Source: a bacterium | GTDB taxonomy: Bacteria > Bacillota_I > Bacilli_A > RF39 > UBA660 | Length of the DNA stretch: 44,159 nucleotides | Direction: 5' to 3' | Assembly (NCBI GenBank): GCA_029100545.1 | Contig: JAQXPH010000032.1 | Coordinates: forward strand, 1-44,159 | Part shown: positions 20,465 to 26,724 of the stretch, one piece after another | How positions within the stretch are numbered: the first letter of the stretch is position 1 | Layout: each line of letters begins with the position of its first letter | Translations under genes and position numbers: made by a program | Notes under the pieces: generated by a model | The model's input: only the letters and a program-made list of their open reading frames with translations | What the model was told of the DNA's origin: nothing | The model's database searches: none

Positions 20465-21166
20465 ATGAAGTTCATTGATTTTAAAGATGTAACAAAGACT
20501 TATAGTAATGGAATTACTGCTTGTGCAGATATTACTTTACAAATTGAAAAGGGAGAATTTGTTTTTGTTATTGGACTTACTGCAAGTGGAAAATCTACAT
20601 TAATTAAAATGTTATATAGAGAAGAAAAACCAACTAAAGGAACAGTTATGGTTGGCGGTGTAAATGTTGGAAAACTTCGTAATAGAAAGGTTTATAAATA
20701 TCGTAGAAAAGTAGGTATTGTATTTCAGGATTTTAAATTATTACCTAATTTAACTGTATATGAAAATGTTGCATTTGCTTTGGAATGTGTTGGGGCAAAG
20801 GCATCTGAAATAAGGCCTAAAGTATTAAAAGCACTAGAACGAGTTGGACTAAAAGATAAAGTTAGAAGTTTTCCTAAGGAACTTTCTGGTGGTGAAATGC
20901 AAAGAGTATGTATTGCAAGAGCTATTGTAAATGAACCAAAATTACTTATTTGTGATGAACCTACAGGTAATTTAGATCCAAAAACAAGTAAAGAAATTGT
21001 AGATGTTATATCAAGTATTAATAATGATCTTGGAACAACTGTTATAATGGCAACACATGATAAAGACATAGTTAATAGAATGAAAAAAAGAGTTTTAGTT
21101 ATTAATAATGGTATGCTTGTTGGAGATTATAAGAAAGGAAGTTATAAGTCAAGTGAAAGCATGTAG
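20465..21166 (+). CDS. ftsE: Cell division ATP-binding protein FtsE
   Basis: IDFKDVTKTYSNGITACADITLQIEKGEFVFVIGLTASGKSTLIKMLYREEKPTKG; LSGGEMQRVCIARAI. Confidence 0.95.
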   Translation: MKFIDFKDVTKTYSNGITACADITLQIEKGEFVFVIGLTASGKSTLIKMLYREEKPTKGTVMVGGVNVGKLRNRKVYKYRRKVGIVFQDFKLLPNLTVYENVAFALECVGAKASEIRPKVLKALERVGLKDKVRSFPKELSGGEMQRVCIARAIVNEPKLLICDEPTGNLDPKTSKEIVDVISSINNDLGTTVIMATHDKDIVNRMKKRVLVINNGMLVGDYKKGSYKSSESM

Positions 21167-22046
21167 AATATTAGGACGAAGCATTAGGGATGCAGTAAAG
21201 AGTATAACTCGTAATTTTTCACTTTCTATGGCAAGTATTCTTTGTGATATGATAACTCTTATTATAGTTTCTGTTGCCATTATTATTGCTTGTAATGTTA
21301 ATAATGCTACAAAATCAATTGAAAGTGAAATGAATATAGTTGTTTATTTTAACAAAAACTCAACTGAAGAAGATAGTAATAATGCTTTTTTAGAGATAAA
21401 AAATTTAGAAGGTGTTACTAAAGCAATTTATAAAAGTAAAGATGAATGGAAAACTGAAATGAGTGATTACTCTGATACATTTGATACAATGCTTAATTAT
21501 TTATCAGATAACCCATTAATGAATAGCTGTATTGTTTATGTAGAAGATATTAGGGAAATTAATAATATAGCGGATAAAATAAAAGAAATTACCAATGTTG
21601 AAGTTGTAAAATATGGTGAATCTATGGTTGAAGAAATTGTATCTGCTTTTGATTTAATTCAAAAAATAACAATAGGAATAGTAATTGCACTGATTTTAGT
21701 AACAGTATTCTTAATATCAAATACAATTAAGTTAACAATTTATTCACGAAAAAATGAAATTGAAATTATGAGATTAGTTGGTGCAAGTAATACCGCAATA
21801 AAATTACCATTTTTATTTGAGGGTTTATTTTTAGGAATTATTGGTTCAATTATTCCTGTTTGTATAACAATATACGGATATGTAATTTTATACAATATAA
21901 TGCATGGATATATGTTTACTGAAACTTTAAATTTAATAAAACCATATAATTTTGTATTTTATGTTTCGGGAATAATTGTTCTTTTAGGAGCAATTGTAGG
22001 TATGTTTGGTAGTACAAACTCAGTAAGGAAGTATTTAAAAGTATGA
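21153..22046 (+). CDS. ftsX: Cell division permease-like protein FtsX (GTG start likely at 21153)
   Basis: (M)KACRILGRSIRDAVKSITRNFSLSMASIL; four TM; RKNEIEIMRLVGASN. SD-like gaaaggaag upstream of GTG; overlaps ftsE. Confidence 0.93.
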   Translation: MKACRILGRSIRDAVKSITRNFSLSMASILCDMITLIIVSVAIIIACNVNNATKSIESEMNIVVYFNKNSTEEDSNNAFLEIKNLEGVTKAIYKSKDEWKTEMSDYSDTFDTMLNYLSDNPLMNSCIVYVEDIREINNIADKIKEITNVEVVKYGESMVEEIVSAFDLIQKITIGIVIALILVTVFLISNTIKLTIYSRKNEIEIMRLVGASNTAIKLPFLFEGLFLGIIGSIIPVCITIYGYVILYNIMHGYMFTETLNLIKPYNFVFYVSGIIVLLGAIVGMFGSTNSVRKYLKV

Positions 22047-23254
22047 AAAAATTAATAAAAATAATATTAGTTTTATTGTTAATGTTTTCTTTTAATCATA
22101 AAGTTGATGCTGCAGCAAATACACTTGCTGATTTAAAAAAAGAACTTCAAGAGTTAAAGTATGAAAAAGCACAAAATGATGCTGCTAAAAACAAAACACA
22201 ATCAGAAATTAATGCTGAAAATAGTAAAATATCTAGTGCTCATAATGAAGTTGAAAAGGCAGAAGAAGATATAAATCAAGCAAAAATACAAATTGAAAAT
22301 TCAACAAAAGAAATTGAGAACATGAAACAAAAAGCAGAAGAAATGCTCACATTTTATCAACTTATTAGTAATGATAGTTCTTTTTTAGACTTTGTTGGAG
22401 GTGCAAGTAGTGCTACTGATGTAGTTATGAGATCTGATGCAATTAATCAAATAATTGAATATACTCAAAATGAATTGAAAAAAATGCAATCTTTAATTGA
22501 AGAAAATCAAGAACTACAAGTAGATTTAGTAAAAAAACAAAATGACTTGGAAGAAAAAATAAAAGAATATGAAAGTAGTTTAGCTTCTTTAAAAAATGAT
22601 TTGTCTTCGCTTGTTGAAGTTACACTTGATATTTCAGAGCAAATTGCTGCGCAAGAAAAACTTATTAAATATTATGAAGATATTGGATGTAAAGATAATG
22701 ATTTATTATCAAAATGCGTAGATGTTGCTAATAGTTCAAAATTTTTAAGACCAACTATACGTGGATATATTTCATCTGGTTTTGGTTGGAGATCATTTTA
22801 TTTAAATGGCAAGCCTTATTCTGATTATCACCCAGCAAATGATATAGCTGGAAATGCTGGTGGTACACAAGTATACGCCACTGCTGCAGGAACTGTAGCT
22901 GCCGTTATTTCAAAAGCTAGTTGTGGAGGAAATCAAGTATATATTCATGTTCGAGTTCAAGGTGTTGCATATACATTAACATATGCTCATTTAATGGATG
23001 TATATGTAAAGGTTGGAGACGTTGTTACTCAACAAACTGTAATTGGTACAGTAGGTGGAGGCGGTAAAACATTAAAAGTAAATGGAGGATGGGATACCTG
23101 TTCTACTGGATATCATTTACATTATGCCGTAACTAAAGGATTTTATCTAGGTGGTGGCTCAGAAGGTTATACAAGTTATAGTAAATACATTTCAAATAGT
23201 ATACAGCCACCAAATTTACCAGCTTATGGTAAATGGTATTATTCAAGGTATTAA
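22043..23254 (+). CDS. Secreted coiled-coil M23 peptidoglycan hydrolase (EnvC-like, probable FtsEX effector)
   Basis: Signal peptide; long coiled coil 30-220; M23 domain with YHPANDIAG (HxxxD) and YHLHYAV (HxH). Confidence 0.9.
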   Translation: MKKLIKIILVLLLMFSFNHKVDAAANTLADLKKELQELKYEKAQNDAAKNKTQSEINAENSKISSAHNEVEKAEEDINQAKIQIENSTKEIENMKQKAEEMLTFYQLISNDSSFLDFVGGASSATDVVMRSDAINQIIEYTQNELKKMQSLIEENQELQVDLVKKQNDLEEKIKEYESSLASLKNDLSSLVEVTLDISEQIAAQEKLIKYYEDIGCKDNDLLSKCVDVANSSKFLRPTIRGYISSGFGWRSFYLNGKPYSDYHPANDIAGNAGGTQVYATAAGTVAAVISKASCGGNQVYIHVRVQGVAYTLTYAHLMDVYVKVGDVVTQQTVIGTVGGGGKTLKVNGGWDTCSTGYHLHYAVTKGFYLGGGSEGYTSYSKYISNSIQPPNLPAYGKWYYSRY

Positions 23255-23928
23255 TGAAAATCATTATAATTATCTTAATAATGTTTTCTTTATCTAGTTG
23301 TAAAAAGGAAGAAACATTAATTATAAGTAATAATACAACAACAAAAGAAATTGAAACAGTTAATGAAGTAGAGCAATACATAGATAATAATCCTTTAAAT
23401 ATTTCACTTTATTTGGAAAGTAATACCGGATTTAATAAACTAAATGACGATATTAGTAAGTCTTGGATTCCTAAAAAAGATATAATAGTTTTATGTGCAT
23501 TTTATACAAATGATGAATTTATAAATTTAGATTTTTATCAAAATATTTGGAAATATTATGCAAACACTATAGATAATGTAAATAATTATAAGATTGGTTG
23601 GGAAATATCTTTTGAAACTAATGAAGGAAAAATACATAAAACATTAAACATGCCAAAGGATGCAATTGATTTTTATGATTATCTTGAAATTTATTTATAT
23701 GATAGTTTAAATCAAGAATTAGGAGCATGGTATTCACATTTACTTGATGAACAAGTAAATGAAAAAACTTTAATAACAACAATAAAATTAACTTGTGGCA
23801 GTAAATGTAGTGAAATAATCTCTAATATTTACATAAAAGTGTTTACATATGACGATAATGAAGACTTTAATGAATCAGGCTTTTATCGTGGCAAAAGTTA
23901 TAGTAGTTTAGTTATAAAAAAAACGTAA
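23254..23928 (+). CDS. Uncharacterised lipoprotein
   Basis: Start ATG 23254 (TAATG coupling); lipobox MKIIIIILIMFSLSSCKKEE. Confidence 0.7.
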   Translation: MKIIIIILIMFSLSSCKKEETLIISNNTTTKEIETVNEVEQYIDNNPLNISLYLESNTGFNKLNDDISKSWIPKKDIIVLCAFYTNDEFINLDFYQNIWKYYANTIDNVNNYKIGWEISFETNEGKIHKTLNMPKDAIDFYDYLEIYLYDSLNQELGAWYSHLLDEQVNEKTLITTIKLTCGSKCSEIISNIYIKVFTYDDNEDFNESGFYRGKSYSSLVIKKT

Positions 23929-23951
23929 TCAATAATTTGGTTACTTTTTTT
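23925..23951 (+). terminator. Terminator after the ftsEX-M23-lipoprotein operon
   Basis: GTAATC...GGTTAC stem then T7. Confidence 0.6.
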
Positions 23952-23974
23952 ATTAAAAATTTTGCTATGAATAA

Positions 23975-24003
23975 TTGTTATCTTATTTTATTCATGTTAT
24001 AAT
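23975..24003 (+). promoter_or_regulatory. Extended -10 promoter TTGTTA-N17-TATAAT (TGt) for the DxDxDG repeat protein
   Basis: -35 at 23975-23980; TGTTATAAT with -10 at 23998-24003. Confidence 0.7.
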
Positions 24004-24026
24004 TATAATAATATAAGGAGTAAAAT

Positions 24027-26072
24027 GTGAACAATAATGATGATTTAATAATAGATACTAATGATTATGAAGATCAAAAGAGAATTATTGAAGAAGAAAA
24101 AAAACAAGATAAAAAAATAAAAAATAATATTTTATTATCCTGTGCTTTTTTAGTTTTTATAATAATTATTATTATACTAAGTTATTTTATATTTTACTTT
24201 TATAAAACTTATGATGGTAGTTTTTCAGATGGTTTTGACAAATGTAAATTTATTAATATTAAACCAGATAATAGTAAAATACCATTTGTAAATATTTCTA
24301 ATAATGATAGTTGTAAACCCGAATATAATATTGACTATATTCAAAATGGTAGGCCATATTTTAATATAGATTTATTTGGAAATCAAACAAAAATATTTAA
24401 TGAAGTTAATATATCTGATTCAAATGGATTATGTAAAATTAATTGTGATTCTAATAATGATGGATGGCCAGATTATAATATTGATTTAAATAGTGATGGA
24501 TTAGCAGATTTAAATATTATATTTAATTATAAGAAAAAAAATACCTGTGATTTAAATTGCGATTTAGATAAAGATATGTTGCCTGATACAAATATTGATA
24601 TAGATGGTGATGGAAAAGCAGATATTAATATTAGTGAAGATGATTACACAAAACCAAAATATAATATTGATTATAAAGGAAATAGAACAGCAATATTTAA
24701 CGTAAAAGATGGAAATGGAAATATTAGTAATCGATTAAACCAACTTGATAATAATGGTAAATGTCAAAAAAATTGTGATATAGATAATGATGGATGGCCA
24801 GATTATAATATTGATTTAGGCAACGGAATATTAATTAACAACTTAATCAATTCAAATGATACTAAGAATATTGAATATAATAAAGGTAAAAATATTGATT
24901 GGAAATGTAGAATAGATAATGATTGTAAAATAAATTCCTATAGTTTGCAAAATACTTATATAAATATTGATATAGATGGTGATGGAAAAGCAGATGTTAA
25001 TATTTCAAATGATGATGGAAATACCTTGACAAATGAAATAAATAAAAAAATTAATAATGAAATATTAAATTATGATATAGATAATGATGGTTTTCCTGAA
25101 TATAATATTGATATTGATAATGATGGAATAGCAGACATAAATATAATAGATAAAAACAATAAATGTATAAAAAATTGTGATATGAACAATGATGGAATAG
25201 CAGATTATTTAATTAATATAAACAATAATATTATATTAGTTGGAATTGATACTGATTATGATGGTAAATGTGATGTAAATTGTGATATTAATTATGATTT
25301 ATATCCTGATCTTAATATTGACATAGATGACGATAATGTCCCAGATATTAATATTGATTTTGATAAAGATGGCAAAGCAGATTTTAACATTGATACAAAT
25401 AATGATGGCAAAGCAGATTTAAATATTGATGTTTATGGACTGGGAATTTGCAATTTCAATTGTAAAATGAGTGATGGTACAATTTCAAATGCTGTTAATA
25501 GTTCTAATAATTGTATAAAAAATTGTGATACAAATGGTGATGGAATGCCAAATCTTAATGTAGATATTAATGATGATGGTATTTGCGATTTCAACTGCAA
25601 TGATGGATCAGAAAAAATCGATAGTGACTATAATTATTATGAAGATGATAAATATAAAAATGAACAAAATATTTTAGAAATAGCTAAAGGAATAGATAGT
25701 AATCTATATATATATAATCCTTTAGAGATTCTATCATTAGACATTGAACCAGGTTGGAATGGAACATATGTATTAAAAATAAAAAATAATTCTAATTATG
25801 CAGTAGCATATAAAATACTTTGGAAAAATGTTTATAATGATTTTACAAATATTAATAATTTAGATTACTTTATTACAAGAAGTAATATATCATATTTAAA
25901 TAATTTAAAGGCACCAAAAGAAAATATTATTTTAGAAGATGAAGTGTTGATTAAAGATAATACAACAGTAAAATATGTTTTACATATGTTATGGAAAGAA
26001 ACTGGTGAAAATCAAAACATAGATAGTGGTAAAACATTTAAAGGACAATTTTATATAGAAACAATTCATTAA
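24027..26072 (+). CDS. Membrane-anchored acidic, Cys-rich EF-hand/TSP3/dockerin-like repeat protein with C-terminal TasA/camelysin-like region
   Basis: GTG start after aaggag; N-terminal TM; about 16 DxDxDG-type loops (13 with intact DG), e.g. DIDNDGFPEYNIDIDNDGIADINI; 8 CxxxC motifs; C-terminal LSLDIEPGWNGTYVLKIKNNSNYAVAYKILW. Confidence 0.85.
   Translation: MNNNDDLIIDTNDYEDQKRIIEEEKKQDKKIKNNILLSCAFLVFIIIIIILSYFIFYFYKTYDGSFSDGFDKCKFINIKPDNSKIPFVNISNNDSCKPEYNIDYIQNGRPYFNIDLFGNQTKIFNEVNISDSNGLCKINCDSNNDGWPDYNIDLNSDGLADLNIIFNYKKKNTCDLNCDLDKDMLPDTNIDIDGDGKADINISEDDYTKPKYNIDYKGNRTAIFNVKDGNGNISNRLNQLDNNGKCQKNCDIDNDGWPDYNIDLGNGILINNLINSNDTKNIEYNKGKNIDWKCRIDNDCKINSYSLQNTYINIDIDGDGKADVNISNDDGNTLTNEINKKINNEILNYDIDNDGFPEYNIDIDNDGIADINIIDKNNKCIKNCDMNNDGIADYLININNNIILVGIDTDYDGKCDVNCDINYDLYPDLNIDIDDDNVPDINIDFDKDGKADFNIDTNNDGKADLNIDVYGLGICNFNCKMSDGTISNAVNSSNNCIKNCDTNGDGMPNLNVDINDDGICDFNCNDGSEKIDSDYNYYEDDKYKNEQNILEIAKGIDSNLYIYNPLEILSLDIEPGWNGTYVLKIKNNSNYAVAYKILWKNVYNDFTNINNLDYFITRSNISYLNNLKAPKENIILEDEVLIKDNTTVKYVLHMLWKETGENQNIDSGKTFKGQFYIETIH
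24453..25600 (+). repeat. Degenerate 36-bp (12-codon) coding repeats
   Basis: Identical 35-mers ataatgatggatggccagattataatattgattta at 24454-24488 and 24784-24818; aatattgatatagatggtgatggaaaagcagat at 24591-24623 and 24963-24995. Confidence 0.85.
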
Positions 26073-26088
26073 ATGAAAGGAGAAAAAA

Positions 26089-26724
26089 ATGGTAACTAAA
26101 AAAATGAAAATTAAGTCAATTATTAATTATGTTTGTTCAGTTATATCGTGGACATTATTTTCAATTTTAATAGTTTGTGCTGTATTACTTGCATATTATT
26201 TTGTTTCAATGAAGTTATATATTGCAAAAGGTGATAAATATAAACCATTTTTTTCGGTTTATACTATAGTAAGTCCTAGTATGGTTCCAACAATTAATGT
26301 TTATGATATTATAATTAATAAAGCGGTTAATAACCCTACTGATATACAAAAAGAAGATATTATTACTTTTACTTCAACAGGAGTTCTTTCTAATGGATTA
26401 ACTGTAACTCATAGAGTACAAGATATTACTACTAATAAAGAAACAAATGAATATGAGTATATTACAAAAGGTGATAATAATCTTATTGCAGATGACGCTC
26501 CAGCCAAATATAGTAATTTAATTGGAAAAGTTATTTTGCGTTTTCCTGGACTAGGAAGAGTACAAGCTTTTGTAGGAAGTAAATTAGGATGGTTAGTTGT
26601 TGTTATTATTCCAGCATTAATAATTATTATTCAAGACGTACTTAAATTAATTAAGGTTACTAAATATAAGAAAATTGCTGATATTGAAAATGAACGTTTA
26701 GTAAGTGAAATAGAAAATAAATAA
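26089..26724 (+). CDS. SipW-like / ER-type (S26B) signal peptidase I
   Basis: VSPSMVPTINVYDIIINKA (catalytic Ser), LTVTHRVQDI (His), ITKGDNN...DDAP, C-terminal TM. Confidence 0.93.
   Translation: MVTKKMKIKSIINYVCSVISWTLFSILIVCAVLLAYYFVSMKLYIAKGDKYKPFFSVYTIVSPSMVPTINVYDIIINKAVNNPTDIQKEDIITFTSTGVLSNGLTVTHRVQDITTNKETNEYEYITKGDNNLIADDAPAKYSNLIGKVILRFPGLGRVQAFVGSKLGWLVVVIIPALIIIIQDVLKLIKVTKYKKIADIENERLVSEIENK

Follow-up and report, generated by a model that had tools for sequence, protein, structure and literature searches.

A 12-residue calcium-loop-like repeat with a coupled cysteine pair in predicted surface proteins of uncultured gut Bacilli

The window analyzed here is a 44,159-nucleotide contig (contig C32) from a 1.13-Mb bacterial genome of the RF39 lineage that is about 93% complete. 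From 20465 to 26724, genes for ftsE, ftsX, an M23 peptidase, a small lipoprotein, a protein with a ladder of short acidic repeats (the ladder protein), and a signal peptidase lie on one strand, and the order from ftsE to the signal peptidase is kept in most of the same-genus loci read. A lipoprotein-like open reading frame is found at the matching place in the same-genus loci read, though no family was found for the small lipoprotein of the window. The GTG start of the ladder protein gene is preceded by AAGGAG. A promoter-like site at 23975–24003 was discarded, since such sites are no commoner here than in shuffles. The features of the locus are as follows.

23233–23928, + strand: small predicted lipoprotein with a lipobox-like SLSSC
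24027–26072, + strand: ladder protein gene, an open frame of 681 aa with a GTG start
24027–24128, + strand: charged N-tail, presumed cytoplasmic, aa 1–34 (alignment)
24129–24206, + strand: single transmembrane helix or signal-anchor, aa 35–60 (sequence and AF2)
24315–25598, + strand: ladder region, aa 97–524, 15 complete 12-residue turns (AF2 of a regular relative)
24411–24446, + strand: Cys turn aa 129–140 (C136, C140), invariant in nine orthologs
24525–24560, + strand: Cys turn aa 167–178 (C174, C178), invariant in nine orthologs
24741–24776, + strand: Cys turn aa 239–250 (C246, C250), invariant in nine orthologs
25143–25178, + strand: Cys turn aa 373–384 (C380, C384), invariant in nine orthologs
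25248–25427, + strand: longest unbroken run, five consecutive 12-mers, aa 408–467
25248–25283, + strand: Cys turn aa 408–419 (C415, C419), invariant in nine orthologs
25428–25463, + strand: Cys turn aa 468–479 (C475, C479), invariant in nine orthologs
25491–25526, + strand: Cys turn aa 489–500 (C496, C500), invariant in nine orthologs
25563–25598, + strand: Cys turn aa 513–524 (C520, C524), invariant in nine orthologs
25659–26069, + strand: predicted C-terminal beta-sandwich domain (C-domain), aa 545–681 (AF2; profile A4)
26089–26724, + strand: ER/archaeal-type (SipW-like) signal peptidase I (TIGR02228), 16 nt past the ladder gene

The initial annotation, made from the sequence alone, had proposed a charged N-tail with one transmembrane segment, an acidic ectodomain with a 12-residue period, and a C-terminal beta domain. 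AF2 prediction of the full window protein, run with nine sequences, reaches confidence only at the membrane helix and the C-terminal beta-sandwich, which supports the proposals for both ends. The predicted helix covers aa 14–61 (pLDDT 71–78 over aa 31–50), with the transmembrane part at about aa 35–60, and D13, Q17, I20, E23, and E24 of the N-tail are invariant within the genus in the alignment. Strands of the C-domain are predicted at aa 566–679 with pLDDT mostly 73–76; confidence in the predicted beta domain is fair. A PDB fold search with the full window protein gave weak beta-sandwich matches only (such as pilins and carbohydrate-binding modules, with target TM-scores up to 0.47 among the matches listed), and these were not taken as an identification.

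The ladder region contains exactly 13 strict D-x-[DN]-x-D-G loops, 15 complete 12-mers, and eight CxxxC motifs starting at aa 136, 174, 246, 380, 415, 475, 496, and 520. In 5000 composition-preserving shuffles of the ectodomain, the means are only 0.38 for strict loops (maximum 4), 0.39 for complete 12-mers (maximum 5), and 0.77 for CxxxC (maximum 5), and the autocorrelation of Asp in the ectodomain peaks at lags 4, 8, and 12. The period, the 13 intact loops counted earlier by hand, and all eight named CxxxC motifs are thereby confirmed. The repeat unit is written as D1-x-[DN]3-x-D5-G6-x-[P/A/C]8-D9-x-N11-[I/C]12. Degenerate turns retaining D1 and N11 and some longer inserts are also present. 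In other 12-mers, for example DYKGNRTAIFNV (aa 215–226) and DLFGNQTKIFNE (aa 115–126), the loop is lost while D1, N11, and the period are retained; the period therefore looks structural, beyond calcium-binding alone.

The positions of the cysteines should be noted. The initial annotation had described the CxxxC motifs as interleaved with the loops and had suggested a disulfide at each turn. Contrarily, all eight CxxxC motifs of the window protein fit a single register that puts Cys at positions 8 and 12, and the pair is limited to a subset of the turns. Loops and CxxxC are one repeat, in which a Cys pair substitutes positions 8 and 12 jointly. The same coupling is observed in 537 repeats drawn from 36 non-redundant ladder proteins, where both positions are Cys in 153, neither in 379, and a single one in 5. 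D1 and N11 belong to the search pattern and are 100% by construction, whereas C8 and C12 are outside the pattern; D9 is found in 94%, the remainder being E or N as set by the pattern. Since 158 of the 208 Cys turns lack a directly adjacent Cys turn, pairing within the turn is the simplest disulfide arrangement. In a differently built surface protein (L125, 2393–7501, + strand), eight near-identical Cys repeats (CDTDGDGECDIN) form a block, which looks like a recent expansion.

The search for homologs with the same 12-residue/CxxxC period, suggested in the initial annotation, yielded many relatives. Orthologs of the ladder protein occur in eight of nine other same-genus genomes. In nine aligned proteins with about 50% identity, all 16 CxxxC cysteines, C73, C96, and many Asp and Asn residues are invariant, and C294 and C300 are lost together in two orthologs without that stretch. 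Pairwise Nei-Gojobori dN/dS values of 0.09–0.43 among the nine orthologs show that the gene evolves under purifying selection. Within one uncultured gut Bacilli family, the architecture turns up in many genera; the named records of the relatives are Bacilli or Bacillota MAGs, and, judging by isolate names, several come from goat, sheep, and probably rabbit gut. Profile A4 of the C-domain has matches in 87 of the 195 family genomes, with up to 20 copies per genome, and the C-domain is present in 32 of the 36 non-redundant ladder proteins. In many C-domain proteins, a ladder separates the N-terminal transmembrane helix from the C-domain; ladder length varies between 2 and at least 75 loops, and CxxxC sites number up to 37 in one protein. 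The same place is occupied by a charged low-complexity spacer in L058, and no ladder is found there in L065.

Cys-free ladders were found in two other Bacilli families directly before a C-terminal transmembrane helix, as in L122 (1105–5088, + strand), where sixteen consecutive 12-mers adjoin the anchor. Location beside a membrane anchor in both topologies argues for a stalk. A phylum-wide draw of 396 genomes gave no ladder outside these three families, and no match to the ladder protein was found in phage records. A loop of one YfcC-like transporter (L019, 1198–2925, − strand) also contains an inserted ladder with one CKVNC, while its relative in the genome of the window (L080, 2244–3251) has no insert there, suggesting that the ladder is a portable module.

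The AF2 model of the window ladder itself has pLDDT mostly 25–65. However, when nine regular repeats of a relative (L031) were predicted with 27 ladder rows, the mean pLDDT was 78, with 81–93 across the first six repeats. Of the five models, only two had good scores (77.9 and 69.7), and the others reached 45–52. DSSP assigns beta-bridges at positions 10 and 12 in most turns, as expected from turns stacked 12 residues apart. We judge the chances that the turns form a stacked solenoid to be about even.

The signal peptidase gene next to the ladder gene was not mentioned in the initial annotation, nor were the C8/C12 rule and the wide family. Its product scores 86.3 bits with TIGR02228 (cut-off 51.85) and 75.5 bits, below the cut-off of 190, with the SipW model NF046067; SPSM and VTHRV motifs may provide a Ser-His dyad, as read from the sequence. 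A SipW-like frame directly follows the ladder gene in all same-genus loci examined and lies 4–600 bases from it in several other genera, so that the adjacency is observed in part of the family. No SipW-like gene was found in the vicinity of the relatives that have a long cytoplasmic domain, with the exception of L035/L052. Six SipW-like signal peptidase matches occur in the 1.1-Mb genome of the window (contigs C5, C32, and C39; L037–L045), four of which are on contig C39 among proteins with AYF/AWF-type signals.

The ER-type peptidase SipW prefers an aromatic residue at P2′ in its substrate TasA (PMC9674648, PMC10269814). It cleaves the signals of TasA and TapA, and TasA fibers assemble through donor-strand exchange (PMC9674648). 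The ladder protein resembles the TasA/CalY proteins in its SipW-like neighbor and may share with them an end motif of the C-domain, although TasA has no ladder. The match of the C-domain to SipW-type proteins of the lineage is partial and covers its last 46 columns (hhalign 93.8%), and small proteins of the same genome with FAYF-type signals have an ending similar to the C-domain. Pfam camelysin gave no match. In addition, the SipW-dependent signal model TIGR04088 scores 24 bits, above its cut-off of 19, for the product of the gene that precedes the L031 ladder. A role in a SipW-linked surface or fiber system is somewhat more likely than not. The observations would also fit a secreted fiber component, in which the peptidase encoded directly downstream cleaves the signal-anchor, the ladder protein joins or caps TasA-like fibers via its beta-sandwich, and the ladder is a fiber arm rather than an anchored stalk. 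However, a plain signal peptide would have neither the long N-tail of the ladder protein nor its conserved cytoplasmic motif. Neither the window protein nor the L031 ladder protein matches TIGR04088, many relatives are without a nearby SipW-like gene, and the ladders of the other families precede a C-terminal anchor. We therefore regard a secreted fiber component, and a fiber arm as the role of the ladder, as rather unlikely.

The initial annotation did not recognize the architecture as a described one, and our searches agree: no family was found for the whole ladder protein in Pfam, NCBIfam, PADLOC, PHROG, or PDB sequence searches, and nothing was found for the repeat string in an annotated-literature search. 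Foldseek of the ladder model gave no PDB match at E ≤ 10, to which repeat masking may contribute. The SD-repeat stalks of staphylococcal MSCRAMM adhesins are acidic spacers from the anchor to the ligand-binding domain, a role like that proposed for the ladder, but they consist of a dipeptide repeat with an LPXTG anchor. NCBIfam matches of L031 to MSCRAMM models lie far under the cut-off (113.8 versus 1700 bits); MSCRAMM matches of relatives were judged compositional and rejected as an identification.

The Dx[DN]xDG loop is identical to that of thrombospondin type 3 repeats, FG-GAP propellers, dockerins, and EF-hands, and the ladder might be a divergent member of one of these classes. On the Cys-free ladder L102, FG-GAP_3 reaches 25.0 bits (cut-off 26.9) and TSP_3 (PF02412) 10.2 bits (cut-off 25), and FG-GAP reaches 20.5 bits (cut-off 22.1) on a Cys-free ladder; an FG-GAP-type match on a window stretch scores 14.0 bits, and TSP_3 is not among the matches listed for the window stretches. 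All matches to TSP_3, FG-GAP, and EF-hand models are sub-threshold and local, mostly over 7–25 residues, and the TSP_3, FG-GAP, and FG-GAP_3 profiles have 36, 37, and 61 positions, respectively, against the ladder period of 12. Together with the Foldseek result, in which repeat masking could hide a match, this makes membership in a known class improbable.

In the calcium blade, the ligands are D1, D/N3, D5, the backbone O of residue 7, and an acidic residue at 9 (PMC3123361). D9 of the ladder matches the acidic ligand of the blade two residues past Dx[DN]xDG, but the blade loop sits in a beta-propeller, whereas the ladder repeats its loop in tandem every 12 residues, with N11 and, in some units, a Cys pair. 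Extracellular Dx[DN]xDG arrays with cysteines are also seen in thrombospondin type 3 repeats, though with units of about 36 residues, and for the bacterial OmpA TT3R, Ca2+ binding dependent on an intra-repeat disulfide is reported (Dai et al. 2017, as referenced in PMC6593220), which resembles the pairing considered here. The beetle antifreeze protein TmAFP is a solenoid of 12 residues per coil with an intra-coil disulfide, Cys 2–Cys 8 (PMC8038014). It shows by analogy only that so small a disulfide-stapled coil is possible, as it has no Ca2+ loops and differs in sequence and origin. As far as we found, the period, the Cys register, and N11 are combined in none of the compared systems. The ladder is a real, conserved, unclassified repeat architecture.

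A disordered acidic spacer, arising by simple-sequence drift and buffering Ca2+ or only adding length, would account for the low AF2 confidence across the window ladder and for the different spacers of L058 and L065. We consider it to have little likelihood, since Cys, Asp, and Asn are invariant over the nine orthologs under purifying selection, C8 and C12 are tightly coupled, and the regular relative gives a high-confidence model.

The full ligand pattern makes Ca2+ binding by the ladder very likely, and intra-turn C8–C12 disulfides are probable. A family-level search for DsbA and VKOR gave no match in the genome, of which about 93% is covered. A secreted protein joining a thioredoxin-like domain (CPHC) to a CcdA/DsbD-like membrane part (L077, 1794–2969, + strand) and a membrane-anchored thioredoxin-like protein (CSVC) were found by reading of the sequences; extramembrane thiol chemistry therefore seems to exist, with L077 as a candidate for such thiol handling. 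The anaerobic gut lineage and the missing DsbA and VKOR matches would also suit CxxxC binding a metal other than Ca2+, such as zinc or iron, or acting in redox without disulfides, but this is distinctly doubtful, as the pair replaces P/A8 and I12 at apparent packing positions and comes without a conserved His or an additional Cys, and the isolated Cys turns offer only two thiols per site.

The best explanation, to which we give somewhat better than an even chance, is an anchored, Ca2+-loaded, and disulfide-stapled stalk carrying a beta-sandwich. The ladder protein would be a type-II membrane surface protein whose stalk length is tuned by repeating the 12-residue turn. Each turn would consist of a calcium loop (side chains of D1, D/N3, D5, and D9 and the backbone O of residue 7) followed by a short strand, x10-N11-I12, through which neighboring turns stack into a narrow rod. 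The net charge of the ladder without metal is −47 in the window protein and −138 in L031, and Ca2+ would neutralize and rigidify the rod. In some turns, the Cys pair at 8 and 12 would form an intra-turn staple replacing the P/A–I contact. The stalk would raise the C-terminal beta-sandwich, whose end may be related to SipW-type fiber proteins, off the cell, and the adjacent SipW-like peptidase may process either the signal-anchor of the ladder protein or partner fiber subunits. The rod stabilized by Ca2+ and disulfides that the initial annotation proposed remains the best reading; it is weakened by the low confidence of the window ladder in AF2, and strengthened by the full ligand pattern D1, D/N3, D5, and D9, by the invariant cysteines, and by the stacked model of the regular relative. 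The low scores of three of the five models for that relative, the missing DsbA and VKOR matches, and the lack of a SipW-like neighbor in relatives with a long cytoplasmic domain also count against the best explanation. More tentatively, and with somewhat less than an even chance, the ladder may represent a new repeat fold. Ca2+ would template a solenoid whose every turn holds one 12-residue calcium loop, and the minimal packing contact could be exchanged for a disulfide turn by turn.

If this new-fold reading is true, the ladder would be a portable stalk module whose size is set in whole turns and which uncultured gut Bacilli display on their surface. Should the stalk interpretation hold, the Dx[DN]xDG calcium motif would gain a further structural setting, and repeat-protein design could draw on a very small stapled solenoid with the simple code P/A8-I12 or C8-C12. 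The ladder also raises the question of how a lineage without recognized DsbA or VKOR makes so many CxxxC sites per protein. If right, the finding would give a first handle on the surface of these small-genome gut Bacilli, known mainly through metagenomes, and would tie that surface to SipW-like signal peptidases.
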